In this document: one piece after another, positions 1-19,258 of the stretch
How the letters are laid out: every line of letters starts with the position of its first letter
Position numbering within the stretch: the stretch's first letter is position 1
From: a virus
Length of the DNA: 29,980 nucleotides
Virus record (IMG/VR): IMGVR_UViG_3300009285_001487
Coordinates: 1-29,980 of that record
Reading direction: 5' to 3' (one strand)
Position numbers and translations under genes: made by a program
Notes under the pieces: generated by a model
Seen by the model: only the letters and a program-made list of their open reading frames with translations
Told to the model about the DNA's origin: nothing
Database searches by the model: none

Positions 1-188
1 ATGAAAAGGCTAAAAATAACGGAGCATTGGGATTTAAGTTAAGTGGTGCTGGTGGTGGTGGACATTTTGTGGTAATATGTAAACCAGAGGATCAAGAGAG
101 ACTTATAAAATCTATGAATGAAATAGGTGTCAAAAATATTGATTTTTCGATAGACTACAATGGCCTTGATGTACGCAAAATAGAATGA
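1..188 (+). CDS. GHMP-family sugar kinase, C-terminal end (heptose 7-phosphate kinase-like), partial
   Basis: An open frame enters from the left edge (codons start at base 3) and stops at 186-188, giving about 61 residues. The stretch GFKLSGAGGGGH is the C-terminal glycine-rich motif of GHMP kinases, and the ending, with a short FSIDYNG strand, resembles the end of D-glycero-D-manno-heptose 7-phosphate kinases (HddA type). Those enzymes phosphorylate the anomeric carbon of a sugar phosphate before nucleotidyl transfer. A sugar nucleotidyltransferase lies one gene downstream and a split transketolase follows, which supports a heptose pathway. The stop overlaps the next start (ATGA at 185-188), so the genes are translationally coupled. 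The GHMP assignment is firm for so short a piece; the heptose substrate is inferred. Confidence 0.75.
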   Translation, partial: EKAKNNGALGFKLSGAGGGGHFVVICKPEDQERLIKSMNEIGVKNIDFSIDYNGLDVRKIE

Positions 189-691
189 TACTAAATTGTA
201 AAGTTTGTAACAGAGAATTTAAGACATTTCCATCAAGAACAAAAATTGGAAAGGGAAAGTATTGTTCTAAAAAGTGTTCAGATAAAGCAACATTGATTAA
301 AACTGGCGTTCGGCTTTCACCCAAGACCGAGATTAAAAAAGGTGAAAGAAAGGGTGTAAATACTGAATTTAAACGAGGAGAAAGACCTTGGAATTGGAAG
401 GGGGGAATAGAACCTTTAAATAGATTGATAAGGAAACATCAAGATTTTTACGATTGGAGAGAGTTGGTATTTAAAAGAGATAATTTTAAATGTAGGAAAT
501 GTTGTCTTTCTGGTAGAAATGGGGCATATTTACATCCTCATCATGTTCTAAATTTTTCAAAATATCCCAATCTAAGATTTGTTGTGTCTAATGGAATTAC
601 TTTTTGTGCAGAATGTCATTGGGAATTTCACAGGATTTATAAAAAGACAAACAATACGAGAGAACAGTTAAATGAATTTCTAAAACGATGA
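185..691 (+). CDS. HNH endonuclease, free-standing homing type
   Basis: 168 residues. The N-terminus has a treble-clef-like zinc site (CKVC near residue 6, CSKKC near 28). The middle has the GERPWNWKGG segment common in phage HNH proteins. The C-terminal half is a zinc-bound HNH domain: CRKC, then HPHH with the general-base histidine, an asparagine in the SNG segment, then FCAECHWEFH. Such proteins nick or cut DNA and often spread as homing endonucleases. The gene sits exactly between the kinase and the nucleotidyltransferase with ATGA overlaps at both ends, so it rides on operon translation and has no evident ribosome site of its own. It probably plays no part in sugar metabolism. Confidence 0.9.
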   Translation: MILNCKVCNREFKTFPSRTKIGKGKYCSKKCSDKATLIKTGVRLSPKTEIKKGERKGVNTEFKRGERPWNWKGGIEPLNRLIRKHQDFYDWRELVFKRDNFKCRKCCLSGRNGAYLHPHHVLNFSKYPNLRFVVSNGITFCAECHWEFHRIYKKTNNTREQLNEFLKR

Positions 692-1215
692 AAGCGATAA
701 TTTTAGCCGGAGGATTGGGAACCAGATTAAAACCTTTAACAGATGACGTTCCCAAACCAATGGTGGAAATATCCGGTAAACCAGTATTAGAACACATCGC
801 GAATCATCTCAACATGTTCGGTATCCATGAAATCATAGTTAATACCCACTACCTGCCCGAAAAGATAATGAACTACTTTGGAACCAGATTCTTATATACT
901 TATGAACCAAAACTCTTGGGTGAAGAAGGTACCGTCTACAGCGTTTCCCATTGGATAGAAAGAGACTTCTGTGTGGTGGTTAACGGAGACACTCTAACCA
1001 ACTTAAATATAAATGAAATGTTTACAATGTCCGGCGGCAGGAATATAAAATATATGGATAAAGATGTGTATGCCGGTACAAGAATAATAGAACCATTTTA
1101 TTGGAGGACCAAAAATCCATCAATTAGTTACCAAACAGCTAAGGCTTATTGGGTTGACATGGGAAGTCCCAAAGGACTGGCAAGAGCTAGAGAAATATAT
1201 GAAAAGATTAATTAA
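688..1215 (+). CDS. Sugar-phosphate nucleotidyltransferase, shortened (HddC/RmlA-like)
   Basis: 175 residues. The N-terminus carries the nucleotide-binding signature LAGGLGTRLKPLT followed by PKPM (residues 6-25), and NGDTLT (99-104) supplies the metal-binding Asp101. The C-terminus has the YWVDMGSP segment (154-161) typical of sugar-nucleotide pyrophosphorylases. The family transfers NMP from NTP to a sugar 1-phosphate, and the closest type I recognise is the D-glycero-D-manno-heptose 1-phosphate guanylyltransferase. The usual length is near 230 residues; the part between the Asp motif and the C-terminal motif is unusually short here, so either a loop-and-strand section is lost or this is a compact phage form. 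It starts on an ATGA overlap with the HNH gene. Family is confident; substrate is inferred from neighbours. Confidence 0.85.
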   Translation: MKAIILAGGLGTRLKPLTDDVPKPMVEISGKPVLEHIANHLNMFGIHEIIVNTHYLPEKIMNYFGTRFLYTYEPKLLGEEGTVYSVSHWIERDFCVVVNGDTLTNLNINEMFTMSGGRNIKYMDKDVYAGTRIIEPFYWRTKNPSISYQTAKAYWVDMGSPKGLARAREIYEKIN

Positions 1216-1453
1216 ATGCGGTAACTGTGAAATAAACGGAGTAGCACAGGTGTTGGGTGAAATTGACGATAACGGAAACTTTGTCGTCTTACGTTTCCAT
1301 AAAGGGTCGACCATAATATCAGGAGATAACTTAGAAGTAACTTGTGGAGGCTGTGGAGAAAAAGTATATAGAAAGGAGGTTAATGAAATACGCAATATCG
1401 GGTTCATCGGGTTTCGTAGGCAAACATCTTTCGCGACGCTTGGGACAATTTGA
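1199..1453 (+). CDS. Small zinc-ribbon protein
   Basis: 84 residues from the ATG at 1199, which overlaps the end of the nucleotidyltransferase by 17 bases. Two CxxC knuckles (KCGNC near residue 7 and CGGCG near 50) flank a short beta-rich stretch, the layout of a zinc ribbon. About 24 C-terminal residues are read from DNA that also encodes the start of the epimerase in another frame. No function is assignable. Small zinc ribbons of this kind are common as uncharacterised phage proteins, and a nucleic-acid or protein-contact role is possible. Confidence 0.6.
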   Translation: MKRLIKCGNCEINGVAQVLGEIDDNGNFVVLRFHKGSTIISGDNLEVTCGGCGEKVYRKEVNEIRNIGFIGFRRQTSFATLGTI

Positions 1454-2156
1454 ACCTCTCGAAAGAGACGGAATAATTCCTAAAGATATTGATGTGGTAT
1501 TTGATTTGGCCGGTTATGGAAATCTGGCCAGCCAAACCCCTGACCCCCGTTCAATTTATCAAGCCAACTTACTAAGGGTTGCTGCGTCACTCCAGGAAAT
1601 CATAGGAACTAAAACAAAATTCATTTACATGTCCACGAGTTCCGTGTCTTTGCCTGCCCAAACATTCTATTCAGCAAGCAAAAAAGCAACGGAAGAAATG
1701 ATACAAATAGCTGTTAGAGAATGGGGTGTAAAAGCGGCGATAGTCCGACCTTACACGATTATCGGTCAAGGCGAGCAGAGAGAGCATTTTGTGCCCACCT
1801 TAATTAACTCCTGTATATCGGGTAAAGAAATGCCTTTTGTTGAAAGACCTGTCCACGATTTTGTGAATGTCGAAGATGTTATTGATGCTTTACTTCTGAT
1901 TGCAAAAAAGGGTAAATTTCAAGGTGAAATCTACGAAGTAGGGACAGGGCAACAATTTACTAATCGCTACATCCGACAAATGACTGAAAGAACGCTTAAT
2001 TGTAAAGCTAATGTTAAATTGGTTAAGAGTCTGCGTAAATATGATACGAAAAAATGGAAAGCCAACAATCGAAGTCTGAGAGCTTTAGGTTGGAAACCAA
2101 AAAGAAAACTTAGTGAAACAATTAAATACATGACGCAAGACTACTTACCTTTATGA
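1383..2156 (+). CDS. NAD-dependent epimerase/dehydratase (extended SDR family)
   Basis: 257 residues from the ATG at 1383, chosen over upstream starts because AAGGAGG lies at 1373-1379 and the Rossmann motif SGSSGFVG (residues 6-13) then begins at the proper distance from the N-terminus. The catalytic pair is visible as YSASK (Tyr96, Lys100), with an upstream STSS serine segment. Extended SDR enzymes epimerise, reduce or dehydrate nucleotide sugars. It follows the nucleotidyltransferase and precedes the transketolase halves, so it most likely modifies the nucleotide sugar made by this operon. It is somewhat shorter than the 300-350 residues of most sugar epimerases. The stop overlaps the next ATG (2153-2156). 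The exact reaction cannot be told from sequence. Confidence 0.88.
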   Translation: MKYAISGSSGFVGKHLSRRLGQFEPLERDGIIPKDIDVVFDLAGYGNLASQTPDPRSIYQANLLRVAASLQEIIGTKTKFIYMSTSSVSLPAQTFYSASKKATEEMIQIAVREWGVKAAIVRPYTIIGQGEQREHFVPTLINSCISGKEMPFVERPVHDFVNVEDVIDALLLIAKKGKFQGEIYEVGTGQQFTNRYIRQMTERTLNCKANVKLVKSLRKYDTKKWKANNRSLRALGWKPKRKLSETIKYMTQDYLPL

Positions 2157-2854
2157 CTGACCTTAAACGAAGAATCCTAGACCTAAGTTACATCCACAAA
2201 CTCTCCCACATAGGAAGTTGCCTCACGGCAGTTAATTTAATTGATGCGGTTTATGCCGTTAAAAATGACGATGAGAAGTTTATATTGTCTTCAGGCCACG
2301 CGGGATTGGCTTTATATGTTGTCCTTGAAAAATACAAATTTATAGACGCAGAGTTTTTAGTAGAACACTCCGGCACACATCCGGACAGGTTAAACACAAT
2401 GACAAGGTCGGGGTCCGACATAGACTGTTCTACCGGCAGTTTAGGGCAGGGACTGCCCATTGCGGTTGGGATGGCACTAGCCGACAGGAACAAAAGAGTC
2501 TTCTGTGTTATAAGCGATGGCGAATGTAGCGAGGGTTCAATTTGGGAAGCGTTGAGAATGGCCTACGAACAGAAACTCAAAAACCTGGTTGTCTTGGTTA
2601 ACGTAAACGGCCTCGGAGCTTACAAAGAAATAAAGGGTTGTGATTTGTTTGATGCGTTTAAGGGGTTCGGTTGGATAGTAGAAGTAGCAGAAGACGACGT
2701 GAGGCACATCAAAAAAGCCATATCTCAAAAGGTCCAGATGCCTACCATGATATTTGTAAGGACCGATGTAGAACAATACCCATTCTTAAAAGGAATCGAC
2801 GCGCATTATTGCGTAATGACAAAGGAGGATTATGAACAGACACTTGAAACATAG
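2153..2854 (+). CDS. Transketolase, N-terminal subunit (TPP-binding half)
   Basis: 233 residues covering only the diphosphate-binding domain of transketolase. Visible motifs in order: SHIGSCLTAV, LSSGHAGLALYVVL, HSGTHPDR, the STGSLGQGL loop, and the TPP/metal motif SDGECSEGSIWEA with a following VNVNG that supplies the metal-binding Asn. Split transketolases use this subunit with a separate pyrimidine-binding subunit, which is encoded at 3339-3851. The active pair moves two-carbon units between sugar phosphates and can make sedoheptulose 7-phosphate, the precursor of heptoses. It starts on an ATGA overlap with the epimerase. An HNH gene now separates it from its partner. Confidence 0.93.
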   Translation: MTDLKRRILDLSYIHKLSHIGSCLTAVNLIDAVYAVKNDDEKFILSSGHAGLALYVVLEKYKFIDAEFLVEHSGTHPDRLNTMTRSGSDIDCSTGSLGQGLPIAVGMALADRNKRVFCVISDGECSEGSIWEALRMAYEQKLKNLVVLVNVNGLGAYKEIKGCDLFDAFKGFGWIVEVAEDDVRHIKKAISQKVQMPTMIFVRTDVEQYPFLKGIDAHYCVMTKEDYEQTLET

Positions 2855-2872
2855 AACTGAACAAGCTATAAT
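2844..2872 (+). promoter_or_regulatory. Promoter for the HNH gene at 2879
   Basis: TTGAAA (2844-2849), 17 bp, TATAAT (2867-2872). The -35 lies in the last codons of the transketolase N subunit. A start 7 bases after the -10 would fall on the A of the HNH ATG, so the message would be leaderless. Confidence 0.7.
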
Positions 2873-2878
2873 ATAACT

Positions 2879-3346
2879 ATGCCATTTATTAAAGGTAAAA
2901 CCTCTTGGAACAAAGGATTAAAGATGCCATTTAAGCATAGAAAAATGGCAAAGGGATTTATGCCTGTTAAAGCGTTCAAAAAAGGCAATTCTCCTTGGAA
3001 TAAAGGAAAGAAACTTAATTATCCAGTTTGGAATAAAGGAGGAAAAGGAAGACAGAAAAACCACAATATTGATGGATTAAAAATAGGTCAACATTTTAAT
3101 TTTAAAGAAGTTGGATATACTTATGCCGCTCTTCATCAGTGGGTGAAACGAAGGTTGGTCAGACCCAATAAGTGTTGTAAATGTGGTGGAACAGGAAAGA
3201 TACAATTAGCTAACAAAAGCGGGAAATACTTGAGAAACTTAAATGATTGGATTTGGTTGTGTGTATTTTGTCATCGTCAATACGATGGTCTAGTTGGTGA
3301 TTGGAAAACGAGACCGAGTAAAATTAAAAAAAGATTCAATGTATAG
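2879..3346 (+). CDS. HNH endonuclease with NUMOD-like repeats, between the transketolase halves
   Basis: 155 residues. The N-terminal third is very basic and repeats the short TSWNKG / SPWNKG / PVWNKGG unit, a NUMOD3-like DNA-binding helix found in phage homing endonucleases. The C-terminal part has a zinc-bound treble clef (KCCKCGG near residue 99, LCVFCHRQYDG near 131) with the asparagine and histidine expected for an HNH fold, although the first HNH histidine is not clear, so activity is uncertain. It has its own promoter just upstream and no ribosome site. Its last 8 bases overlap the start of the transketolase C subunit. It is best read as a mobile gene inserted between two genes that belong together. 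Confidence 0.82.
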   Translation: MPFIKGKTSWNKGLKMPFKHRKMAKGFMPVKAFKKGNSPWNKGKKLNYPVWNKGGKGRQKNHNIDGLKIGQHFNFKEVGYTYAALHQWVKRRLVRPNKCCKCGGTGKIQLANKSGKYLRNLNDWIWLCVFCHRQYDGLVGDWKTRPSKIKKRFNV

Positions 3347-3851
3347 ATTTTTAAAATCGTCAATTCATGATAGTCAGCGAGGATACTTTGCGTATGCACT
3401 TTTTAAGGAGATGGAAAAAAACAAAGATGTTTTTTTGGTAGTTGGAGACTTGGGATACAAGATATTCGATAGACATTTTGCGTGTTTTCCTGAAAGGACT
3501 TTCAATACCGGAGCAGCCGAGCAATCTTTAATAGGTATATCAGTAGGGCTAGCACTAGAAGGTAAAATACCATTTGCTTATTCGATAACTCCATTTTTAT
3601 TATATAGGGGTTTTGAAACTATCAGGAATTATATCAATAGGGAGAAGATAGCTGTCAAGTTGGTAGGGGGAGGTAGGGGCAGGGATTACCTAGCAGACGG
3701 ATGGAGCCACTGGGCCGAGGAGGATAAAAAAGTAATGAGGATCTTTAAAAATATAAAATCTTACTGGCCGGAGACAAAAGAAGAAGTACCCAACTTAGTA
3801 AAAGAAATGATAAAAAAGAAGAAACCTTATTATTTGAACCTAAAAAGGTAG
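3339..3851 (+). CDS. Transketolase, pyrimidine-binding subunit
   Basis: 170 residues from the ATG at 3339, which overlaps the HNH gene. The catalytic Glu61 lies in TGAAEQS, the TPP-activating glutamate position of transketolases. The pyrimidine-site region follows (GISVGLALEGKIPFAYS), then DGWSHWAEED, matching the DG-x-x-H-x-x-x-ED segment. The protein stops after this domain: the third, C-terminal transketolase domain (about 120 residues) is absent, so the phage enzyme is a minimal two-domain, two-gene form. It should pair with the subunit at 2153-2854. It closes the sugar operon, and a new promoter starts one base after its stop. Confidence 0.88.
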   Translation: MYRFLKSSIHDSQRGYFAYALFKEMEKNKDVFLVVGDLGYKIFDRHFACFPERTFNTGAAEQSLIGISVGLALEGKIPFAYSITPFLLYRGFETIRNYINREKIAVKLVGGGRGRDYLADGWSHWAEEDKKVMRIFKNIKSYWPETKEEVPNLVKEMIKKKKPYYLNLKR

Positions 3852-4498: not shown

Positions 4499-4501
4499 TG
4501 G

Positions 4502-4732
4502 GGCAGGTGTGGAATGGTGCGGTGGGGTATGGTCGGGAGCGGTAAGGAGTGTTGAGGTCGGGTAGGGTTTGGCAGGTGTGGTAAGGTAAGTTCGGGAACG
4601 GTGTGTTTAGGTCGGGCAGTTGGGGAGTGGATAGGTAGGGCTAGCAGAGGTAGGGATTGGCAGGTCAGGTTTGGTACGGTGAGGTAAGGTGTGGTGAGGT
4701 ATGGTGAGGTGAGGTATGGTGAGGTGAGGCAG
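4502..4732 (+). repeat. GGNNN pentamer array with evenly placed GGCAG landmarks
   Basis: The whole gap between two genes is a G-rich, C-poor tract built of 5-base units that start with GG. In-phase runs are 4511-4575 (13 units), 4580-4619 (8), 4629-4668 (8) and 4673-4732 (12, all beginning GG). The phase slips are mostly 4-base units (GTGT, GTGT, GTTT) and directly follow GGCAG or GTCAG. GGCAG occurs at 4502, 4571, 4615, 4659 and 4728, so the spacings are 69, 44, 44 and 69 bases. Units such as GGTGA and GGTAT recur near the end. The tract contains no long open frame. It could be a protein-binding platform, a G-quadruplex former, a packaging or origin site, or a structured 3' UTR. Confidence 0.9.
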
Positions 4733-4759
4733 GATTTATCAGAAAGAAGGTGATTAAAA

Positions 4760-5682: not shown

Positions 5683-6990
5683 ATGCAAATTGACTTTGAA
5701 ACAGAAAATTTCCCAGCACAACAGACAATCTTTGATTCAAAAGCCCGTTATAAAATTGTTGTAAAGGGTAGACGTTTTGGTTTAACCAAAGGTGCAGCCA
5801 ACGATTTTATAAATGAAGCTCTTGAGGATAAGTATAAAGCGGGTTTGTGGGTTGATACTGTAAACGCAAACATTGAAAAGTACGTAGAAAGATATTTTAT
5901 ACCGCACCTTAAAAAGTTGCCAAAAACCGTTTGGCGTTGGAGAAAACAGGCCAAAATACTTGATATTAAAAATTCGTACATCGACTTTAGGTCAGCAGAT
6001 AGACCAGAGAATATTGAAGGTTTTGGCTACGATAAGTTGTTTATAAATGAAGCTGGTATCGTTCTGAAAGACGAGTACCTTTGGGACAATGCCATAAAAC
6101 CAATGCTTTGGGATTATCAACCAAGGTGTGTAATTGGCGGTACGCCCAAAGGGATGGGAATATTTAACAAGTTGGCAGAATACGGGAAAGATAAAGATAA
6201 ACCTGAATACGAGTATTTTCACTTTACTAGCTATGATAATCCATATCTTCAACTAGATTTACTTAGAGAAGAAGTAAAAAATATGCCGGAGCGGGTAGTC
6301 AGGCAAGAGGTATATGCTGAGTTTCTGGAAGACACGGGGGTGGTATTTAGGAACGTAAGTGCAATAGCAGACGCTTTACCTGAAAAGCCACTTGATGAAC
6401 ACACCTATGTAATTGGGTGTGATTTAGCCAAAGTTACAGATTTTACAGTAATCAGCGTTTACGACAGAAGTAATAACAAACAGGTTTATCAAGATAGGTT
6501 TAATAAATTGGAATGGCCCTTTCAAAAAGCGAAGATTAAGTCTGTATCAGATCATTATAACCGAGCTTTGGTAATGTTAGACGCAACAGGACTTGGAGAT
6601 CCAATCGCAGACGATCTAACAAGGGCAGGAGTACCAATTGAGCCTATCAAATTAACAAACGAAACAAAGAAACAAATTGTTGAAAAACTGGCAATCTTTA
6701 TTGAACAACGGCACATTCACATGCTAAATATTGAGGACACGATTAAAGAGTTTAATAATTTTACTTATGATATAAGTGCATCAGGTAGAGTAATGTATCA
6801 ATCCCCACAAGGTTTCAATGACGATATTGTGATTAGTCACGCACTCGCAGTATGGTCATTGAACCCCTTGTACAAGGCGACTCATGAGAAGCCAAAGACA
6901 CCTTTACAAGAGGCTTACGAAGAACAAAAAATATTATATGAGGAAACAGACCAAAACCTCGCCGAACTCGACGAGTGGAACGAAAGCTGA
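5683..6990 (+). CDS. terL: Terminase large subunit
   Basis: 435 residues with an ATPase domain and an RNase H-like nuclease domain. The ATP-site segment is KGRRFGLTKGAA (about residues 27-38), a known terminase variant that departs from the classic GxxxxGK[ST]. The Walker B-like strand is KLFINEAG. The nuclease acidic residues are seen in IGCDLAKVTDF, MLDATGLGDP and FNDDIVISHALAVW. The enzyme pumps DNA into the capsid through the portal and cuts concatemers. It directly follows the small subunit and its 3' end overlaps the next gene by about 53 bases. Confidence 0.95.
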   Translation: MQIDFETENFPAQQTIFDSKARYKIVVKGRRFGLTKGAANDFINEALEDKYKAGLWVDTVNANIEKYVERYFIPHLKKLPKTVWRWRKQAKILDIKNSYIDFRSADRPENIEGFGYDKLFINEAGIVLKDEYLWDNAIKPMLWDYQPRCVIGGTPKGMGIFNKLAEYGKDKDKPEYEYFHFTSYDNPYLQLDLLREEVKNMPERVVRQEVYAEFLEDTGVVFRNVSAIADALPEKPLDEHTYVIGCDLAKVTDFTVISVYDRSNNKQVYQDRFNKLEWPFQKAKIKSVSDHYNRALVMLDATGLGDPIADDLTRAGVPIEPIKLTNETKKQIVEKLAIFIEQRHIHMLNIEDTIKEFNNFTYDISASGRVMYQSPQGFNDDIVISHALAVWSLNPLYKATHEKPKTPLQEAYEEQKILYEETDQNLAELDEWNES

Positions 6991-7716: not shown

Positions 7717-9910
7717 TAGATTAAGAGATTATCAAACAAGCAATATATCCTCTGCCTCCATAGGTCAGGCGGTTGATGAGATTATGACTTCAGCTACCTC
7801 ACAACGCAAAACCTTTGAACGCAGGTGGTATGATAACAACTTCTTTGATGACGGCTTTCACTTCAGATATCTTAGTAGAACCCAAAACAAGATAGTTGAT
7901 TTAACAGAACGGCAAAACATGTGGGCACCTATTAGGGCCATACCCAAAGCATCACGTCAGATTAGGGGTGTTGCTAACTTACTTGTATCGAGAGACTTCA
8001 CCCCAACCGTGTATCCGGAACGTATATCCAAGTATCAATACCCCCCCCAACAGGTTCAAGACCCCGAAACAGGAGAGACGGTTAATCAAGAAAACCCCGA
8101 ATATAAACTTGCATTAGATGAAGCTAAAAGGATTGCCAAATCAAGCGGTCACTGGCTGGAAGAAGAGATGCGGGACAAAGACATTCCAGAACTCATAGCC
8201 TATATGGTTATCCTTGCAGCCAAACATTCAGTATCTTACTTGAAGATATGGCCAGATGCAGTTGAAGAAAAGATTAAGGTTGCAGTTAGGGATGCGTTTG
8301 ATATCTACCTGGCCGGTAACGTTAATGAGACAGAAGACTCACCTTACCTAATTGATGCAGTCCCCAAGTTTATAAGTGAGATTAAAGCTAATGAAGAGTT
8401 TGACGAAGAACAACTGGCAAAGATAAACCCTGACAATAAACAAGCCTCAAGCGAAATCAAGAACGCTTACATGACTTCAAAGTATGGCAGAGAGAATAAC
8501 TCTGACAGCAACGCCACGTTAATTCAAAAGGAGTCATTTTTGCAAGAATATATAGATGATGAAATAGTTGAAAGATTAAAGATTCAGTATGGAAAGTATC
8601 AAGACAAAGACTCTGAGGAAGTATTAACTAAAAAGAAAAAAGGGGACAGGGTTATAAGACATTCATTCACAGCAGGGAATATTGGACTCTATGACCGCTA
8701 TACATCGCTTCCTTCTTATCCTTATGCAGACTTCAGGTTTGAACCAGGTCCTATCTATCAAGTGCCTCTCATTGAACGATTCATTCCAGCCAACAAATCC
8801 CTCGACATGCTTATCAGTAGAGGCGAAAGGATAGCTCACACAATGGTTGTGGGAACTTGGTTGAAGAGCAAGGGACAGTCATTCAATATTACCAACCAAG
8901 CCGGAGGGCAGGTAATCGAGTATGAAGGTGTACCCCCGACACAAGGTCAAATGGCCAATATACCAACATTCTTCTTTGAGTTAATTGGCTTTATGCAAGC
9001 CTTAATAGAAGAGCAGGGTGTATCAACCTCAACGCTTGGTAAACTTCCTTCAGGAGTAAAAGCCAATGCAGCCATCGAGAGTCTTAAAGAGAGTGAATAT
9101 GCCAACTTAGTCATAGCCGACAGACGCTTAAAGCAGACAGTTAAAAAGATTGCCCAAAAGTTCCTAGATATAGCCGATGATTACTTCACCTCACCCAAGA
9201 CGGTTTACTACCTGGAGAAAGGCGAGCCACAGTATTATGACGTTATCGGAGCCAGTGCATTAAAGAAACGACAGGAAGTTGGTGTTGAAACTCCCAAAGA
9301 TGTCGTGCCTCTTAAAAAGGATTATAAAGTTGAAATTGAAATTTCAACAACGCCAGCCTATACACGCCAGGGACAAAGAGAAGTATTAAACGGACTTATG
9401 GACAAAATGATTCAGTTGGCAACAGGAGGTCTTATTCCTCCCGAAGCCATTAAAGCAGTGGTTCAACAGTTCCTAGACACTTACCAGTTCGGAGCAACAA
9501 GTGAGATAATGGATGCGATAGAAGACTTTGGACAAACGGGTAATATGGAACAAAATCAGATAGAAGCAATCAAAGTAGCCCTAATGGAAGTATTCAAAGA
9601 CCTTAAAGGAAGTGAAATGTTCCCAGATCAAAAGACCAGGATAGACGAGAATAAGGTGGCCGCGCTTGAAGTAATGAAAGACACGGGTGGGGGTAAACCT
9701 GCGCAACAAGAGGAAAAAGGCCCAAGTAAATCCATATCATTCAAAGACTTACCAGCAGAAGGCAAAGTACAACTGGCTGCACAGGCTGATATTGAGTTAT
9801 CACCAGAACAAATAAAAGCTCAGGAAGAAGAAACACAGAAGGTTGCGATGGCTAATGCCAAAGCCAAAGTAGTAGTAAAACCAAATGCCACTAATAAAAA
9901 GCAAAAGTAA
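7709..9910 (+). CDS. Portal protein
   Basis: 733 residues, a large portal that would form the dodecameric DNA gate at one capsid vertex. The order (terminase, small genes, portal, scaffold, capsid) and the content fit: residues near 60-75 carry LTERQNMWAPIRAIPKASRQ, a clip/wing region follows, then a long mixed stretch, and VSTSTLGKLPSGVKANAAIE around 441-460 resembles the segment of podovirus-type portals before the crown. The C-terminal 80 residues are helical, charged and rich in Gln/Lys/Ala, as in crown or barrel tails. No frameshift is seen. Confidence 0.85.
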   Translation: MADRLRDYQTSNISSASIGQAVDEIMTSATSQRKTFERRWYDNNFFDDGFHFRYLSRTQNKIVDLTERQNMWAPIRAIPKASRQIRGVANLLVSRDFTPTVYPERISKYQYPPQQVQDPETGETVNQENPEYKLALDEAKRIAKSSGHWLEEEMRDKDIPELIAYMVILAAKHSVSYLKIWPDAVEEKIKVAVRDAFDIYLAGNVNETEDSPYLIDAVPKFISEIKANEEFDEEQLAKINPDNKQASSEIKNAYMTSKYGRENNSDSNATLIQKESFLQEYIDDEIVERLKIQYGKYQDKDSEEVLTKKKKGDRVIRHSFTAGNIGLYDRYTSLPSYPYADFRFEPGPIYQVPLIERFIPANKSLDMLISRGERIAHTMVVGTWLKSKGQSFNITNQAGGQVIEYEGVPPTQGQMANIPTFFFELIGFMQALIEEQGVSTSTLGKLPSGVKANAAIESLKESEYANLVIADRRLKQTVKKIAQKFLDIADDYFTSPKTVYYLEKGEPQYYDVIGASALKKRQEVGVETPKDVVPLKKDYKVEIEISTTPAYTRQGQREVLNGLMDKMIQLATGGLIPPEAIKAVVQQFLDTYQFGATSEIMDAIEDFGQTGNMEQNQIEAIKVALMEVFKDLKGSEMFPDQKTRIDENKVAALEVMKDTGGGKPAQQEEKGPSKSISFKDLPAEGKVQLAAQADIELSPEQIKAQEEETQKVAMANAKAKVVVKPNATNKKQK

Positions 9911-10925: not shown

Positions 10926-12188
10926 ATGGCTTTACAATTAAGTAATGTTGCAGCTGCTTTGAAAGAAGTGGTATTACCTTACATTAAAGACAACTTCCCC
11001 AAGGATAAAATCCTAGTGGATCAGATGAAGAGAAACGCCGGTGTTACGTTCATGAATGATGAATTTATCGCCCCCGTTTGGACTTCTCGACACGGCGGAG
11101 TTGCTAACCTAGCAGATGATGGTAATAGTGTTGTAACATCAAGTGGAAGAAGTACGTCTAGGGGAACAGTGTCAGTAAAAATTCCGACTGGTGCGTTCGA
11201 TATATCTAAATTGGTTATCGATGCGACCAAGACCGTGAAGGGTGCTGTTGAGAATATGCTCAACGCGCAAGCACAAACTCTTTCGACAGACTTCGGGCGA
11301 CACATCAACCGGCAGATGTATGGAGATAGTTACGGTGTCATAGCTCAGGCTAGAGAAACAGGGGGTTCCGCAGGTGCAGCTACCGCTGCAATAGAAAGTG
11401 TTGGAGCAGGAACAGGACCCGACGATGGCAGAGTTAAGGACATGTACGGGACTATCAACGGCGATATTGCTCCGGCTAAATACGTATTCCCAGGGCAAAT
11501 CCTTGGAGTAGGTACCGCCAGTGCAGCAGAAGGTACGGTCTCTTCAGTTACGGGAACCTCTATTGTCTTTACGGGCAATACGGCAATCGCAGCTAGTGAC
11601 TCTATCTATATCGACGATGGTTCGTTAGAAGGTGGGGGAACCTCAGAGTTTAATGGACTTAAGGATGCTCTCTCTTCTACAACCGGCACATCTACGTACG
11701 CTGGACTCGCAAGAAGTAATACAGGATGGACTCCTAGTTTTGGATCAGTCTCAGAGGCTTTGACATTATCTAGAATGGAAGACAGCTACCTCGCAGCTCG
11801 CGAGTATGCTCAATCCGGAGACACCTTTGTTATCATTGTGAATAAATCTTTGTTTAAAAAGTATGGTGACATACTTACCGCTATGCGTAGAACAGTCGAT
11901 AAGGCTGATCTACTCGGAGGTTTCAAGGGTTTGGAGTTCGCGGCAGGTGATGGCAACGTTGGTGTATTCCTTGATTATGATTGTCCGGACGGAGTCGTGT
12001 TCATTTTGGACATGGATTCATGGACATTGTGTCAAGTAAATGACATCAATTGGCTCGAAGACCCAAGTGGTGGAGGACTTTTGCGTTTGCAAAATACTCT
12101 TACCTACCAAGCAGTGTTACATTGGTTCGCAAACATGTTATGTTTGAGTCCAGCTGCTAACGGGCAGGAAACGAGAAAGACGGATTAA
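10926..12188 (+). CDS. Major capsid protein (HK97-fold type)
   Basis: 420 residues. The N-arm region (LKEVVLPYIKDNFPKDKIL), the TGAFDISKLVIDATK strand-helix and the long AVENMLNAQAQTLSTDFGRHINRQMYGD helix look like a phage HK97-type capsid protein. Residues near 188-238 (GQILGVGTASAAEGTVSS and on) read like an inserted small beta domain, perhaps a surface-exposed insertion. The ribosome site AAAGGAG lies 9 bases before the ATG at 10926. The C-terminus (TLTYQAVLHWFANMLC) matches the closing P-domain strands. It should be among the most strongly expressed genes here. Confidence 0.88.
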   Translation: MALQLSNVAAALKEVVLPYIKDNFPKDKILVDQMKRNAGVTFMNDEFIAPVWTSRHGGVANLADDGNSVVTSSGRSTSRGTVSVKIPTGAFDISKLVIDATKTVKGAVENMLNAQAQTLSTDFGRHINRQMYGDSYGVIAQARETGGSAGAATAAIESVGAGTGPDDGRVKDMYGTINGDIAPAKYVFPGQILGVGTASAAEGTVSSVTGTSIVFTGNTAIAASDSIYIDDGSLEGGGTSEFNGLKDALSSTTGTSTYAGLARSNTGWTPSFGSVSEALTLSRMEDSYLAAREYAQSGDTFVIIVNKSLFKKYGDILTAMRRTVDKADLLGGFKGLEFAAGDGNVGVFLDYDCPDGVVFILDMDSWTLCQVNDINWLEDPSGGGLLRLQNTLTYQAVLHWFANMLCLSPAANGQETRKTD

Positions 12189-13439: not shown

Positions 13440-13469
13440 TTGATTTACCTATTTTAGTTGGGATATAAT
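13440..13469 (+). promoter_or_regulatory. Possible promoter overlapping the first methyltransferase start
   Basis: TTGATT (13440-13445), 18 bp, TATAAT (13464-13469). The -10 overlaps the ATG at 13468, so transcripts from it could not use that start. A 9-bp inverted repeat, GTAGGCAGT / ACTGCCTAC (13471-13479, 13495-13503), follows directly. Confidence 0.45.
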
Positions 13470-14163
13470 GGTAGGCAGTAAGGGTTGGGCATTAACTGCC
13501 TACCTACCCAACATGAACGGTATTTTTTTTGAGGGATCGATAGAAGAGAATTTTATCGGTCATATAATGAAGGAGGTGTATGTTGAAAACGTATATGCTC
13601 CTTTTTTAGTGGGCAAATCTAATTTAACGATACTCGATGTGGGGGCAAATATTGGTCTAACATCACAATATTTTTCACAGTTTGCTTCTAAGGTCTATTC
13701 CCTTGAACCTTCAACGGAACACTTTAAATGTTTAAAACACATGCTTGAATTTAACAAGATTACAAACGTAGTACCTATTCAAAAAGCGCTATTCATGAAG
13801 AACGGCAAACTACCCTTTGGCGGTCCTGCAAACAATAAAACAATGCGCAGTTTACACATGTCTACCTGGAGAGACGGCAAGCCGGAGGAAGAAGTTGAAG
13901 CAATAACACTAGACACTTTATTTGAAGAAAACAAAATAGAACACGTTGACCTTATGAAACTTGACGTAGAAGGAAGCGAGGTTGAGATTATATCCTCAGA
14001 GGGATTCAGGAAGGTGGCCGACAAAATTGATAGAATAATTATGGAGAATCACGCATGGAACGGCAGAAACCCCGAACAAGTAAGAGGGGTCTTGGACATG
14101 AGAGGATTTGATGTAGAAACCCTACCCACAGATGCAAGCATACTTGTCGCCACAAAAAAATGA
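13468..14163 (+). CDS. FkbM-family methyltransferase 1
   Basis: 231 residues from 13468; the ATG at 13513 is an alternative (216 residues) if the promoter at 13440 is used. The SAM-binding motif is ILDVGANIGLT, followed by the acidic VYSLEPS strand and the family motif LMKLDVEGSEVEI. FkbM-type enzymes methylate hydroxyls of sugars or small molecules. It is followed by a second FkbM-like gene and lies in a module with two glycosyltransferases, so O-methylation of a phage-made glycan is likely. The stop overlaps the next start by ATGA. Confidence 0.85.
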   Translation: MVGSKGWALTAYLPNMNGIFFEGSIEENFIGHIMKEVYVENVYAPFLVGKSNLTILDVGANIGLTSQYFSQFASKVYSLEPSTEHFKCLKHMLEFNKITNVVPIQKALFMKNGKLPFGGPANNKTMRSLHMSTWRDGKPEEEVEAITLDTLFEENKIEHVDLMKLDVEGSEVEIISSEGFRKVADKIDRIIMENHAWNGRNPEQVRGVLDMRGFDVETLPTDASILVATKK

Positions 14164-14750
14164 GTAATATACTTAAATTATATAAAATGTTAGAAGACAA
14201 CAAAGCAAGATTCATAGACGAAGTGTTTGAAAAGGAAATCTATAAACCCACATGTCCGCAATTAACAATTATTGATGCAGGAGCTTATGAAGGTGAATTT
14301 TCTTTTTACAGTTATCCTTTTGCTAAAAAGATATATGCTATTGAACCAGACCCAAGGCCTTTCGAGATTATGAAAACCCACGTAGAGGAGTTTGAGGTTG
14401 GTAATATAATTCTTCCATTTAACATTGCCTTGGCTAAAGAAGATGGCGAGCGCAACTTTTTTAATTCTGGATACGGAGGAAGTGCATTTAAGAGTGGTGC
14501 AGATACTATCGTAGTAAAAACACAGTCACTAGCGAATTTTATGAAAGAGAATAAAATTGATCAGGTTGACGTGTTAAAAATAGATGTTGAAAGTGCAGAA
14601 AGAGAAATATTTGGCGCTCCCGACTTTCCTTCGGTGGCAGATAAAATAAAAATGATAATAGGTGAACACGGAGATGGATTACCCGAGATTCTTTTGCCGT
14701 TAGGATTTAAACTTAAAGATTATCAATATGGATTTATATACACAAGATGA
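14160..14750 (+). CDS. FkbM-family methyltransferase 2
   Basis: 196 residues with the same fold as the gene before it but clearly diverged: SAM motif IIDAGAYEGEF (Gly-x-Gly reduced to GAYEG), acidic strand IYAIEPDP, and VLKIDVESAEREIF in place of DVEGSE. The serine/alanine change in the DVEG motif may alter substrate choice. The pair probably arose by duplication or joint recruitment and would methylate different positions of a sugar. It starts and ends on ATGA overlaps with its neighbours, tying it to the chaperonin genes. Confidence 0.8.
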   Translation: MSNILKLYKMLEDNKARFIDEVFEKEIYKPTCPQLTIIDAGAYEGEFSFYSYPFAKKIYAIEPDPRPFEIMKTHVEEFEVGNIILPFNIALAKEDGERNFFNSGYGGSAFKSGADTIVVKTQSLANFMKENKIDQVDVLKIDVESAEREIFGAPDFPSVADKIKMIIGEHGDGLPEILLPLGFKLKDYQYGFIYTR

Positions 14751-15031
14751 TTAAACCACTTCCTGGCTATATTTTAGTAGAGCCTATTAAAGAGGAAACT
14801 CAATCTGGTGGTATTTATTTACCACAAGATTTAAATGACAAACCAAGTAAGGGGAAAGTTGTTGCCATTGGTTACTGGACTAAAGACTGGAAAGAACAAT
14901 GGGCCGAAATAGAAAACTTTGAAATTGGTCAAACAATTCTTTTTAAGAAGTGGACAAATCAGGAGGTTAAATACGAGGGGAAAGAATATCTACTTGTTAA
15001 ATTTGATGAATTGTTGGCAATAATAGAATGA
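14747..15031 (+). CDS. groES: GroES co-chaperonin
   Basis: 94 residues. The start IKPLPGYILVEP, the mobile loop EETQSGGIYLP that contacts GroEL, the GKVVAIG strand and the closing KYEGKEYLLVKFDELLAII are all diagnostic of Cpn10. The GGIYL tripeptide region has Tyr where host proteins usually have Val. Between the two halves is a Trp-rich YWTKDWKEQWAEIENFEIG stretch that may be an altered roof. It would form the heptameric lid of the phage GroEL and is coupled to it by ATGA (15028-15031). Confidence 0.95.
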   Translation: MIKPLPGYILVEPIKEETQSGGIYLPQDLNDKPSKGKVVAIGYWTKDWKEQWAEIENFEIGQTILFKKWTNQEVKYEGKEYLLVKFDELLAIIE

Positions 15032-16611
15032 AAATAACAAAAGAATTATTATTTGGTACAAGTGCAAGAAACAAAATCCTAAAAGGGGTTAATGTTGTTG
15101 CTGAGGCAGTTGCGACAACTCTCGGTCCAAGAGGTCGTAATGTAGCCATAAATGACCGTTTTGCAACCCCCACAATACTTCACGATGGCGTATCAGTAGC
15201 CCGCCAAGTTAATCTTAAAGACCAATTCGAGGACATGGGAGCTGAAATTCTCAAAACCGCAGCTATTAGAACCAACGAGGTGGCGGGAGATGGCACTACA
15301 ACTGCAACCATATTGGGTCAGGCGTTAATCAAAGAGGCGTTCCAGGCGATAGCGTCGGGAGCTAATCCAATGGTTATCAAGCAACAAATTGAGAAAGCCT
15401 CAAAGTTGGTTATGGAAGAGTTAAAGAAATTGACCAAAAAGATCGAAACAGATGAAGAAATCGCACAAGTAGCCACAATTTCCTCAACAGATCCCGATAT
15501 CGGGAAACTTGTAGCAGAAACCATCAAAAAAGTCGGTAAAGACGGCATTATCACCACAGAAGAAGGTAAAAAACTTGAAACTGAAGTTGAATATAAACAA
15601 GGCATGGAAATAGACAGGGGTTACCTTTCACCCTACTTTGTGAACAAAAACGAGACTGTCGAGGCTGTTATCGAAGACCCTTACATCCTAATTACCGACA
15701 AAAAGATAAACCATCAATATGAAATAGCCCCCTTGCTTCAAAAGTTACTTGAAAAGAAGATTAGAAGCCTTGTTATTGTTGCCGGAGAGGTTGTTGAGGA
15801 AGGAATGGCGGTTTTGGTTATAAATAAACTAAAAGGGGTATTCGACTTGGTAGCAATACAAGCTCCCGCCTACGGAGGCAGAAGAATTGATGAGTTGGAG
15901 GACATTGCCGCACTTACTGGTGGTATAGCCATACTTGAAGACAGTGGCAGACTTTTGGATAGCGTTGAAATTGAAGAGTTGGGCAAGGCTGAAAAGGTAA
16001 CGGTAGACAGGGACAAAACCATTATCCTTAACGGTGCGGGTACAAAAACCATTGTAAATAAGCGGATAAACGAGTTAAAAGAGCAAATTAAGGTAGCAAG
16101 CAGTGAATTTGATGGAGATATCAAAAAACAACGCCTCGCAAACCTTACAAGCAGTGTCGCAGTTATAAATGTAGGTGGTGCAACCGAAGTCGAAGTAAAA
16201 GAGAAGAAAGAAAGAGTAATAGATGCCGTAAACGCTACAAAAGCAGCAATAGATGAAGGAATAGTTGCCGGAGGGCAGATGGCATTGGTAAACATCTCCA
16301 AGATGCCCTTCTGGGGCGATGTGAGCGATTTTGGCGCGTTAATACTCAAAAAAGCACTAAGGATGCCTTTCAAGAGACTTATCGAAAATACAGGCTTAGA
16401 TTACGCAGAAATTTGGGGCAGTCTATCAGATCAGAAATATCCTATGGGAATTGACGTTACAGATGGCAAAGTAAAGAATTTGATAGAAGCGGGGATTATT
16501 GATCCGGTAAAAGTTGAGCGTGTAGCGTTAGAAAATGCAGTTTCAGTTGCCACAATGTTAATGACAACAAATGTCCTTATTTCTGAACTAAAACAAGAAG
16601 ATGAAAAATAA
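15028..16611 (+). CDS. groEL: GroEL chaperonin
   Basis: 527 residues with a full chaperonin layout. The ATP site shows TLGPRGRNV (31-39) and GDGTTTA (87-93), with Asp88 at the catalytic position. The apical substrate-binding region holds GYLSPYFVN, and the other nucleotide segments IDAVNATKAAIDEG and AGIIDPVKVE are present. Oddities: the conserved PGGG turn reads VAGGQ, and the C-terminal GGM-repeat tail is absent (it ends ELKQEDEK). The protein should fold substrates in an ATP-driven ring with the phage GroES. A complete pair inside a methyltransferase/glycosyltransferase module is unusual. The 3' end overlaps the next gene by 11 bases. Confidence 0.97.
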   Translation: MKITKELLFGTSARNKILKGVNVVAEAVATTLGPRGRNVAINDRFATPTILHDGVSVARQVNLKDQFEDMGAEILKTAAIRTNEVAGDGTTTATILGQALIKEAFQAIASGANPMVIKQQIEKASKLVMEELKKLTKKIETDEEIAQVATISSTDPDIGKLVAETIKKVGKDGIITTEEGKKLETEVEYKQGMEIDRGYLSPYFVNKNETVEAVIEDPYILITDKKINHQYEIAPLLQKLLEKKIRSLVIVAGEVVEEGMAVLVINKLKGVFDLVAIQAPAYGGRRIDELEDIAALTGGIAILEDSGRLLDSVEIEELGKAEKVTVDRDKTIILNGAGTKTIVNKRINELKEQIKVASSEFDGDIKKQRLANLTSSVAVINVGGATEVEVKEKKERVIDAVNATKAAIDEGIVAGGQMALVNISKMPFWGDVSDFGALILKKALRMPFKRLIENTGLDYAEIWGSLSDQKYPMGIDVTDGKVKNLIEAGIIDPVKVERVALENAVSVATMLMTTNVLISELKQEDEK

Positions 16612-17320
16612 GGTCATAGCCGTCTCCGTAGCTGATGCCAACAATCTCAAGTATTTTGAGATGATGAAAAACTCCCTAAGAAAGTTTCACACGGAAGAGG
16701 AGTTACCCCTAGCCTTGATCGGTCCTGATCAACTTAAACTTAACCCTGACCCGTCATTCTTTTACAGGGCAACTCCAATGTTGGGTAATCAATTCTTAAA
16801 CATAGAAGGGTATGACACAGTTATTAAACTGGATGCAGATCAGATAATCACGAGCGATTTAAACCATATTTTAAAAGATAAAGAAGATTATGATGTTGGT
16901 ACGGTTTTAAACGATTTACCCTTACGGGTTTGGGATATTCAAACTTATTATAACTGCGGAATGGTTGTGATGAAGAGTAGAGAATTTGTTAAGCATTGGT
17001 TGGATTTGTGTTTTAGTCCCCATTTTGACAGGTATCAATACAGAGAACAGGATATTCTTTCGATACTTACAAGTGATTATTTTAAATATAAAGTTAAATG
17101 TTATGACTTGGGGGATAGGTTAAATGGTCTTATTGCTAAACCGTCTTGGATTAAGTGTTATATGGACGACAATAAAATAATGTTAGACGCCCCCACCGGA
17201 AAGAAACAGTTAAGTGTTATTCATTTTGCTGGTGGAAATTCAGATCCCGCTAAGGGTAACTACAAGATTAAGTTTCAACCAGATGTTGTAAAATATATAG
17301 ATAGTTTAATAAAACCATGA
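16601..17320 (+). CDS. Glycosyltransferase, GT8-like (GT-A fold)
   Basis: 239 residues. The DxD metal motif is in VIKLDADQIITSDL (Asp78, Asp80), following a nucleotide-sugar fold, and a C-terminal VIHFAGGNSDPAKG segment supplies a second histidine-type ligand as in GT8 and glycogenin-like enzymes. YYNCGMVVMKS is the matching mid-domain motif. It should move a sugar from a nucleotide donor to a glycan or protein. It starts inside the end of groEL and its stop overlaps the HNH start by ATGA. The donor could be the sugar made by the operon at 1-3851; this is inference. Confidence 0.82.
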   Translation: MKNKVIAVSVADANNLKYFEMMKNSLRKFHTEEELPLALIGPDQLKLNPDPSFFYRATPMLGNQFLNIEGYDTVIKLDADQIITSDLNHILKDKEDYDVGTVLNDLPLRVWDIQTYYNCGMVVMKSREFVKHWLDLCFSPHFDRYQYREQDILSILTSDYFKYKVKCYDLGDRLNGLIAKPSWIKCYMDDNKIMLDAPTGKKQLSVIHFAGGNSDPAKGNYKIKFQPDVVKYIDSLIKP

Positions 17321-17823
17321 AAGGACACAAGGGTTTCCAAAAAGGCCACTCGATGTATAAAGGTTGTGAAAAAGGTTGGATAAAAAGGGGGCAGAAATTG
17401 TCCGAAGAAACTAAAAAAAGGATGAGCTTGGCTAGAAAGGGAAAACCCCAACCTTGGCACAAAGGGATAAAACACACAACAGAATGGAGAAAACACATGA
17501 GTGATTTAATGAGGGGTGAAAATCATTGGAATTGGCAAGGTGGAAAAGAAACGGCAAATAATGTTGTGAGGAAGTCTTTAGAATATAAATTGTGGCGTGA
17601 GGGTGTTTTTGAAAGAGATAATTACACTTGTCGAGAATGTGGAAAGATTCAGGGTTGGGACAAATTAAACAAAAGACACATAGATATTCAAGCAGACCAT
17701 ATAAAATCGTTTACAAAATACCCAGAATTAAGATTTGATATAGATAACGGGAGGACTCTTTGTACAGATTGTCATGTTGAAACTCCAACTTGGGGTAATA
17801 ATCAATATTATTTAAATGGCTAA
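17317..17823 (+). CDS. HNH endonuclease, free-standing homing type
   Basis: 168 residues. The N-terminus is basic with NUMOD3-like repeats (KGHKGFQKGHSMYKG, SEETKKRMSLARKGK, EWRKHMSDLMRGE), followed by NHWNWQGG, the same segment type seen in the HNH gene at 185. The HNH core has CRECG, then IQADHIKSFTKYPELRF, the DNGRTL asparagine and CTDCH. It is more complete than the copy at 2879. It is inserted between two glycosyltransferase-module genes with an ATGA overlap on the left and 8 shared bases on the right. A role in glycan building is unlikely. Confidence 0.9.
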   Translation: MKGHKGFQKGHSMYKGCEKGWIKRGQKLSEETKKRMSLARKGKPQPWHKGIKHTTEWRKHMSDLMRGENHWNWQGGKETANNVVRKSLEYKLWREGVFERDNYTCRECGKIQGWDKLNKRHIDIQADHIKSFTKYPELRFDIDNGRTLCTDCHVETPTWGNNQYYLNG

Positions 17824-18040: not shown

Positions 18041-19258
18041 ATGAAAAAAATAAAGGACAGAAGATTAAGAATACTGTGGGTGAGTAATAGTCACTGGTGT
18101 AATTCGGGATATGGTGTATTTACCAGAGATTTACTTTTCAGACTCCGTGATGACGGTTGGCCTGTTGCCGAGGTAGCTTTTTACGGATTGGAAGGTAATC
18201 CAACCATAATAGACGGTATCAAAGTATATCCTAAGATGGGTGATGTATGGGGGTCGGATTCAATGTTTCACTCAGCCATTGATTTCAAAGCCAATGTTGT
18301 TTTTAACATGCAGGATATGGGTTTTATTCAATCGCAATTCCTCGACCTTTTAATGAAGAACAAAATCCCTTGGATACCCTACCTGCCCATAGACCAGGAG
18401 CCCGCACCCGCACCCGTACTGGAAAAATTGAATTTTGCACACAAGATAATCACATTCTCCAAGTATGGGCAGAGGGTACTTGAAAATCACGGTTATGCTT
18501 CAAAAATGATTTATGAGGGTGTAGATACAAACATCTTTAAACCAATGGATAAAATGGCGTGTAGAAAAACATTGGGAATTCCGGAAGACGTGTTTTTGTT
18601 TTCTATGGTTGCTGCCAATAAAGAAAACCCCCCGCGTAAAGGCTTTCAGGAGGTTTTAGAATCTTTCAAGCTGTTTTACGATAAACACCCAGAAGCCGCA
18701 ATACTTTTTCATACTCAGCAAACAGCCCCTGGAAACTTCCCGATAGCCGAATATGCTAACCATTTGGGCATTTCCAGTAGAATATTTTTTATGGACCCGT
18801 ATAAATCAACATACTTCTCCGGCTCTCCTGAAATTGCCATAGAGATGAACGCTTGCGACATATATCTGCAACCTTCAATGACTGAGGGGTTTGGCCTTAC
18901 CAGTGTAGAAGCTCAAGCGTGCGGAAAACCAGTTATCGTAAATAATTGTCAATCCATGCCGGAACTTGTGATACCAGGTAAAACAGGCGAGATTTGTGAA
19001 ACCAACTATAAGTGGTGGAGAGGGCAAAACGGGTATGTATTTACGGCAGACACCAAGTCAATGTACGAGAAAATGGAGAAAATCTATGACATGTTAAAGA
19101 AAAATCCCAATAAAGTTCAAAATGATTGTCGGCAACACATTTTGACAGATTTAAACATAGATAGTATATTTAAAAATGAATGGATGCCCTTTTTAGAGGA
19201 TTTGCAAAATGATCTTCTAGGGGAACCAAAGGGAGAGAAACACTCTCCCACCAAGTGA
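18041..19258 (+). CDS. Glycosyltransferase, GT4 family (GT-B fold)
   Basis: 405 residues. The N-terminal Rossmann domain opens ILWVSNSHWCNSGYGVFTRD, with the glycine-rich acceptor loop. The C-terminal domain has AANKENPPRKGF at the donor side and the EX7E motif in MTEGFGLTSVEAQACGKPV, the hallmark of retaining GT4 enzymes. It would add a sugar from a nucleotide donor to a growing glycan. With the GT8-like enzyme and two FkbM methyltransferases it could build a methylated oligosaccharide for the virion or the host surface. A strong hairpin and a terminator overlap or follow its 3' end. Confidence 0.9.
   Translation: MKKIKDRRLRILWVSNSHWCNSGYGVFTRDLLFRLRDDGWPVAEVAFYGLEGNPTIIDGIKVYPKMGDVWGSDSMFHSAIDFKANVVFNMQDMGFIQSQFLDLLMKNKIPWIPYLPIDQEPAPAPVLEKLNFAHKIITFSKYGQRVLENHGYASKMIYEGVDTNIFKPMDKMACRKTLGIPEDVFLFSMVAANKENPPRKGFQEVLESFKLFYDKHPEAAILFHTQQTAPGNFPIAEYANHLGISSRIFFMDPYKSTYFSGSPEIAIEMNACDIYLQPSMTEGFGLTSVEAQACGKPVIVNNCQSMPELVIPGKTGEICETNYKWWRGQNGYVFTADTKSMYEKMEKIYDMLKKNPNKVQNDCRQHILTDLNIDSIFKNEWMPFLEDLQNDLLGEPKGEKHSPTK
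19231..19249 (+). other. Perfect 7-bp hairpin in the end of the GT4 gene
   Basis: GGGAGAG / CTCTCCC around AAACA, inside coding sequence just before the stop. It is the first of up to three hairpins leading to the terminator at 19297; an mRNA 3'-end protection role is possible. Confidence 0.6.

Follow-up and report, generated by a model that had tools for sequence, protein, structure and literature searches.

A phage gene cluster of probable nucleotide-sugar function with a two-subunit transketolase tied to a short-chain dehydrogenase/reductase

The window analyzed here is the complete 29,980-base viral record IMGVR_UViG_3300009285_001487, which is a phage, as it carries genes for a terminase and a major head protein. 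At its left end lies a cluster of closely packed sugar genes, all on the plus strand, which includes both subunits of a split transketolase (Tkt): TktN, the thiamine diphosphate (ThDP)- and Mg-binding subunit (positions 2153–2854, 233 aa; Transketolase_N PF00456, E 9.3e-18), and TktC, the pyrimidine-binding subunit alone (3339–3851, 170 aa; Transket_pyr PF02779, E 7.2e-17). They are preceded by SDR2, a short-chain dehydrogenase/reductase (SDR) of the NAD epimerase/dehydratase type (1383–2156, 257 aa; PF01370, E 1.9e-21). The cluster is best explained as a phage nucleotide-sugar operon in whose right half the SDR and TktN/TktC form a separate, portable module. That this right half is a nucleotide-sugar module, and not a pentose-phosphate gene, appears very likely. 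For the more specific proposal that TktN/TktC forms a new carbon–carbon bond on a nucleotide ketosugar, we estimate a probability of roughly 0.55, the chemistry being inferred from the genes, their residues and their neighbours. The original prediction had placed a kinase end, a nucleotidyltransferase, an epimerase/dehydratase and a two-part transketolase in one cluster, and domain matches recovered all of them. It had also cast the transketolase as a supplier of sedoheptulose 7-phosphate, a role that is not favoured by the association of Tkt with the SDR, the loss of its third domain and of His461, and the presence of RfbF/G/H clusters in its clade.

The association with the SDR was seen in viral contigs searched with TktC and TktN alignments. 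This search yielded 80 loci, whose neighbouring genes were clustered; the 65 non-redundant loci with both Tkt subunits come from 64 viral contigs and a single genome of Daviesbacteria. SDR2 stands directly 5' of TktN in 27/65 loci and a second family, SDR8, directly 3' of TktC in 19/65. Together, both families make up 3.7% of the locus open reading frames (ORFs), yet they occupy 46 of the 130 flanking positions (binomial ~1e-32, indicative only, as the loci are related). Within 8 kb, an SDR-type sugar gene was found in 61/65 loci, and the SDR–TktN–TktC trio occurs in dozens of phages that carry no heptose genes. Many loci also carry RfbH (L030: 473 bits, cut-off 423) and a 4,6-dehydratase-type SDR. 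SDR2 itself has the S-Y-K catalytic residues and, according to the alignment, lacks the acid pair that follows the Ser/Thr in 4,6-dehydratases; its nearest solved chain is 6zl6, and its closest kin are sugar epimerases and dehydratases, enzymes whose reaction proceeds via a 4-keto state. In a number of relatives, L057 among them, a few genes separate the trio from the preceding major head protein gene, a position that hints at virion decoration. No named cultured phage carries the family: a search of 50,697 phage records gave best matches of 25–36% identity, most of them located in short unannotated records or bacterial contigs.

These neighbourhoods bear on the role first proposed. According to this alternative, TktN/TktC would be a true transketolase, whose sedoheptulose 7-phosphate would pass through GmhA, the kinase, a phosphatase (possibly of the host) and the nucleotidyltransferase to a nucleotide-heptose that is modified by the SDR. 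The isomerase and the HddA-like kinase to the left of the homologous operon, the retained ThDP and catalytic residues, and an RpiB-like domain beside Tkt in L019 all speak for it. However, a HddA homologue is near in only 3/65 loci and GmhA/HddA genes are missing in about 60/65, and the fixed partner, which is even fused to TktN in one relative, is the SDR and not a heptose gene. We therefore consider this alternative rather unlikely. The RpiB-like domain in L019 is part of a fusion with a nucleotidyltransferase (8201–9367), whose neighbours are TktN/TktC and genes for a PfkB kinase and a KdsC-type phosphatase; together they make up a different sugar set linked to the same transketolase type. 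Furthermore, L040 carries two TktN/TktC pairs in one phage, one with RfbH and SDR4 and the other with SDR2.

Cellular relatives place the transketolase in a nucleotide-sugar context as well. Among plasmid-borne proteins, the closest to the TktC of an RfbH-type phage include those of Methylovirgula, Paenibacillus and two Azospirillum plasmids. The gene order is rfbF-rfbG-SDR-rfbH-TktN-TktC in Methylovirgula, while in Paenibacillus rfbF-rfbG and a methyltransferase are followed by a 635-aa fusion protein (Epimerase at residues 19–247, Transketolase_N at 383–612) and then TktC. One Patescibacterium (L127) shows a contiguous RfbF-RfbG-TktN-TktC-SDR8-RfbH set, and L126 the phage-like arrangement SDR2-TktN-short TktC. 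The presence of RfbF/G/H clusters in the clade, which do not need a heptose, is a further point against the supply of sedoheptulose 7-phosphate. The product of RfbF/G/H is CDP-3,6-dideoxy-4-ketoglucose. TktN/TktC is the sole ThDP enzyme seen in the YerE slot of the RfbF/G/H-type relatives, and this gene set of RfbF/G/H, SDR and Tkt is as expected if Tkt replaces YerE. In yersiniose synthesis, the ThDP enzyme YerE adds two carbons at the ketone of CDP-3,6-dideoxy-4-ketoglucose (PMC12247030). The relatives thus resemble the yersiniose pathway (RfbF/RfbG/RfbH, YerE, YerF) in that RfbF/G/H are accompanied by a ThDP enzyme and by an SDR; in contrast, YerE is a single-chain enzyme of the decarboxylase superfamily, whereas TktN/TktC consists of Transketolase_N and Transket_pyr in two genes, and the window phage itself lacks RfbF/G/H. 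A second parallel comes from miharamycin/amipurimycin biosynthesis, where ketosugar branching by split transketolases is a proposal of the literature that covers only 13 Streptomyces sequences (PMC12247030). Judged by their description, an oxidoreductase acting on a sugar precedes the split transketolase in both cases, but the miharamycin/amipurimycin type resides in Streptomyces antibiotic clusters, and the present family accompanies nucleotide-sugar genes in phages, Patescibacteria and plasmids. A search of the available literature library returned no relevant paper on a transketolase with RfbH or on phage-encoded heptose pathways.

Other cellular members were recorded as well. In Daviesbacteria (L003, 8248–11200), genes of a NodU-like carbamoyltransferase and of a DegT aminotransferase precede a short transketolase pair, whose TktN is frameshifted in the assembly, and L171 and L172 may carry a similar set. 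Two Patescibacteria (L003, L092) have the nearest cellular TktC sequences, no more than a hint at the host.

At the level of residues, the equivalents of H26, H66, H100, D155, N185, H261, E411 and H473, which serve ThDP binding, Mg binding and catalysis, are kept in nearly all family members. In the window, TktN retains H26, H66, H100, D155, E160, N185 and H261, and TktC retains E411 and H473. The window TktC has the Transket_pyr domain only and no transketolase C-terminal (third) domain, which is absent throughout the phage TktC genes (~134–185 aa); the N subunit is typically ~205 aa long. His461 of E. coli transketolase binds the sugar phosphate. Its equivalent is Gly in 61/63 scored phage sequences, the window included, combined with Tyr at position 466, and all of the 11 scored sugar-context bacteria share Gly461 and Tyr466. 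Among the other scored bacterial sequences (n = 21), His461 occurs in 18, Asp469 in 19 and Gln474 in 19. The loss of H461 likewise argues against a true transketolase delivering sedoheptulose 7-phosphate. Compared with the split transketolase of Carboxydothermus hydrogenoformans (6yaj/6yak), the phage family is alike in the adjacent gene pair, the ThDP and pyrimidine domains and the catalytic residues, but it lacks the third domain and has lost the H461 and S385 equivalents.

The fold leaves some room for a related enzyme class. An AlphaFold model of TktC (confidence score pLDDT 88) matches the split transketolase 6yaj with Z 21.4 over 155 residues at 2.0 Å and DXS with Z 22.0. This equal proximity, together with substrate-loop residues unlike those of transketolase, would suit a different ThDP carboligase acting on a nucleotide sugar, with an alpha-keto acid donor, in the manner of YerE or DXS, or with a different acceptor. 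Since transketolase is the best NCBIfam match of both TktN and TktC and the C. hydrogenoformans split transketolase is the best PDB match of TktC, we regard such an enzyme as improbable.

In the phylogenetic tree of Tkt, all phages, the sugar-context bacteria and one long-branch Salmonella protein form one set (Shimodaira–Hasegawa-like approximate likelihood-ratio test, SH-aLRT, 98), with ordinary split transketolases outside; a subset unites the phages with two short Patescibacterial proteins (SH-aLRT 95). The HddA-carrying phages fall in three separate places, where their Tkt is grouped with that of phages without HddA. The heptose cassette appears and disappears along the Tkt tree, and for this reason, too, the supply of sedoheptulose 7-phosphate is disfavoured. 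The tree also bears on a third alternative, by which the genes would be auxiliary metabolic genes of the pentose phosphate or Calvin pathway that raise nucleotide precursors. Studies of marine and soil viromes interpret viral tkt genes accordingly (PMC4053976, PMC12615777), but the neighbours here are sugar-nucleotide genes without other pentose phosphate genes, and the members lie outside the ordinary split-transketolase branches, which makes this explanation very improbable.

We further related the Gly461/Tyr466 signature to the gene neighbourhood in bacterial genomes. In a first bacterial set, sugar genes were located within 1.5 kb in 6/7 loci of the signature type versus 1/23 of the others (Fisher 8e-05). 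A second draw of 380 genomes, few of which were shared with the first draw and none of which contributed a shared scored locus, gave sugar genes in 6/13 loci of the G461/Y466 type and 0/12 of the H461 type when 3.4-kb loci were considered. Ten loci initially without sugar genes, which were of the G461 type or fitted neither pattern, were extended to flanks of up to 8 kb, with contigs often shorter than the requested flank; eight of them then showed matches to SDR4, RfbH/DegT or a nucleotidyltransferase.

Several observations weigh against a ketosugar-branching role. With 8-kb flanks, a distant sugar-gene match appeared in 3/10 ordinary control loci, too. Heptose-type genes lie near Tkt in several lineages, namely HddA in three relatives and on two Azospirillum plasmids, which pair Tkt with a HddA-like kinase, and HldE-like genes in five phages, a pattern to be expected if Tkt supplied sedoheptulose 7-phosphate; in Azospirillum B510, the HddA/Tkt region, rich in insertion sequences, contains a HddC–GmhB fusion. 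The equivalents of R358 and R520 are retained, so that phosphate binding would be weakened and not abolished. Asp469, which in transketolase contacts a hydroxyl of the acceptor, is retained in the window's own subgroup and lost in the RfbH/SDR8 phages. The loop around H461 is of low confidence in the model, although the sequence alignment is gapless there. SDR2 alone does not reveal which carbon is oxidised. Finally, the function of the family is a prediction, and the miharamycin/amipurimycin precedent is itself a proposal. The five phages with HldE-like genes (L023, L032, L034, L038 and L039) carry genes for an HldE-like kinase and adenylyltransferase as well as a small HAD gene directly after TktN-TktC-SDR8, which is a second, unrelated heptose-activation set.

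The left half of the operon extends beyond the contig edge and was read in relatives instead. In the window, it begins with a GHMP kinase cut by the contig edge, of which the last 61 aa remain (3–188; GHMP_kinases_C PF08544, E 1e-08), followed by a compact sugar-1-phosphate nucleotidyltransferase resembling MurU, ManC and HddC (688–1215, 175 aa; NTP_transferase PF00483, E 4.6e-20). Three relatives, L010, L014 and L051, carry an operon with its left end, consisting of a SIS isomerase, GHMP kinase, short nucleotidyltransferase, SDR, TktN and TktC. As had been suggested for the region left of the kinase, an isomerase of the GmhA family is present directly ahead of it in all three (TIGR00441, E 2.9e-44 in L010, 7.2e-41 in L014 and 1.1e-25 in L051). 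The top models for these isomerases (146–161 aa) are all of the GmhA family (E 2.9e-44, 2e-43 and 2.6e-26, respectively), with scores under the curated cut-offs. For the intact kinases of L010 (1310–2245) and L014 (7142–8056), the best model is HddA NF049969 (E 5.0e-47 and 5.8e-41), far under its curated cut-off of 600 bits. A heptose-kinase type for the window kinase is suggested by these intact homologues; for the 61-aa stub taken alone, the mevalonate kinase model scores marginally above HddA. The window nucleotidyltransferase matches MurU (E 4e-25) and HddC (E 3.7e-23), and the MurU, ManC and HddC models perform alike, all under their curated cut-offs. It is shorter than the family profile, but this short form, with its GxGxR, NGD and DxG motifs, is kept in four phages. 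A single-sequence search of the viral contigs with this protein gave no match, and its AlphaFold model, built from four sequences (pLDDT 70), was too weak to be of use. Degenerate or truncated enzymes were also considered and rejected, as the short nucleotidyltransferase, TktN and TktC keep their length and motifs across divergent phages.

The step without a convincing gene is that of the phosphatase. No GmhB was apparent in the L010, L051 and window operons, the phage genomes not all being complete; L014 has an ORF of 101 aa, placed between the isomerase and kinase genes and starting with a DxD-type motif, that gives no Pfam or NCBIfam match. The bisphosphate phosphatase expected from the original prediction thus did not appear convincingly in the relatives' operons; the host could supply it. 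Accordingly, of the proposed nucleotide-heptose pathway, the GmhA-family isomerase and HddA-like kinase are found in relatives, and the phosphatase is not established. Because HddA is the best kinase match and a GmhA-family isomerase is present in relatives, the left half is most likely a nucleotide-heptose pathway, and we find it fairly probable that the sugar in the window phage is a heptose. In comparison with the GmhA-HddA-GmhB-HddC pathway, which makes the D-glycero-alpha-D-manno-heptose nucleotide, the L010, L014 and L051 operons contain the same families of isomerase, GHMP kinase and nucleotidyltransferase, and the window corresponds to their right part; the phage operons differ in the absence of a convincing GmhB, in the compact nucleotidyltransferase and in the attached SDR and transketolase.

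Based on the enzyme families, both halves could be joined into one route. The isomerase, kinase, host phosphatase and nucleotidyltransferase would provide a heptose activated with GDP or another nucleotide, on which SDR2 would create or reduce a keto group. TktN/TktC might then move a two-carbon (hydroxyacetyl) unit, donated by a host ketose phosphate or hydroxypyruvate, onto the keto group, resulting in a branched, longer sugar. More speculatively, the product may be used, perhaps on the virion, by a group 1 glycosyltransferase (18041–19258, plus strand; PF00534, E 6.2e-19), a candidate for its transfer, and by two FkbM-type methyltransferases (13468–14163, PF05050, E 2.7e-16, and 14160–14750, PF05050, E 1.7e-14; both plus strand), the first a possible user or modifier of the glycan. 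Tentatively, the phage-dominated family of tiny transketolases (~205 + 160 aa) could thus be a ketosugar-branching enzyme working with an SDR, and the window group could build a nine-carbon branched sugar from its own heptose.

Viral transketolase genes are routinely counted as auxiliary genes of carbon metabolism; if the ketosugar-branching proposal is true, this whole group would move to glycan building, and the two-residue signature Gly461 and Tyr466 would tell glycan-type from carbon-metabolism transketolases. It would further provide minimal two-subunit enzymes for transketolase-type ketosugar branching, a reaction so far proposed in antibiotic biosynthesis, and imply that phages possess their own unusual sugars, branched or long-chain.

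The cluster also contains HNH genes, one at the junction of kinase and nucleotidyltransferase (185–691, plus strand; phrog_1271, E 7.4e-16) and an HNH-like ORF of 155 aa at the TktN/TktC junction (2879–3346, plus strand), which was recognized through phmmer homologues in relatives (3.7e-09 to L010 4776–5222, 5e-10 to L074). An HNH homologue occupies the equivalent TktN/TktC junction in L010, the nearest relative of the window in the Tkt tree, and in L074–L077. L010 has no HNH gene at the border of kinase and nucleotidyltransferase, where both genes overlap. The HNH genes look like mobile insertions at gene borders that leave the sugar genes intact. As a cause of the transketolase split, the HNH gene was ruled out, because in almost all relatives the two genes stand without any insertion between them; the transketolase described as split is indeed encoded by two genes, but this is the native two-subunit form, as in the relatives, and not an interruption. 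A third HNH gene (17317–17823) is homologous to the one at 185–691 (phmmer 8.6e-22).

Between the nucleotidyltransferase and SDR2 lies a small zinc-ribbon ORF (1199–1453, plus strand, 84 aa as read; family c105, C..C / CG.CGE pattern), which has homologues in the nucleotidyltransferase/SDR gap of L010 and ahead of the SDR in L054 and L056. Downstream of the cluster, the terminase large subunit is encoded at 5683–6990 (plus strand; phrog_2, E 1.2e-37) and the major head protein at 10926–12188. In L057, a 713-aa glycosyltransferase (14723–16864) contains an inner stretch, residues 182–294, that matches thymidylate synthase and ribonucleotide reductase PHROGs and is probably an intein or homing endonuclease. 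A scan of the window for RNA families gave no match. Approximately 240 bases of G-rich intergenic DNA at 4499–4740 contain short GGTNNGG-like words, with repeat periods of 5, 10 and 15 at 4662–4729; no comparably G-rich and C-poor stretch was present in the fetched loci. Besides that, the window encodes a chaperonin of the cpn60/GroEL type at 15028–16611 (PF00118, E 3e-57).

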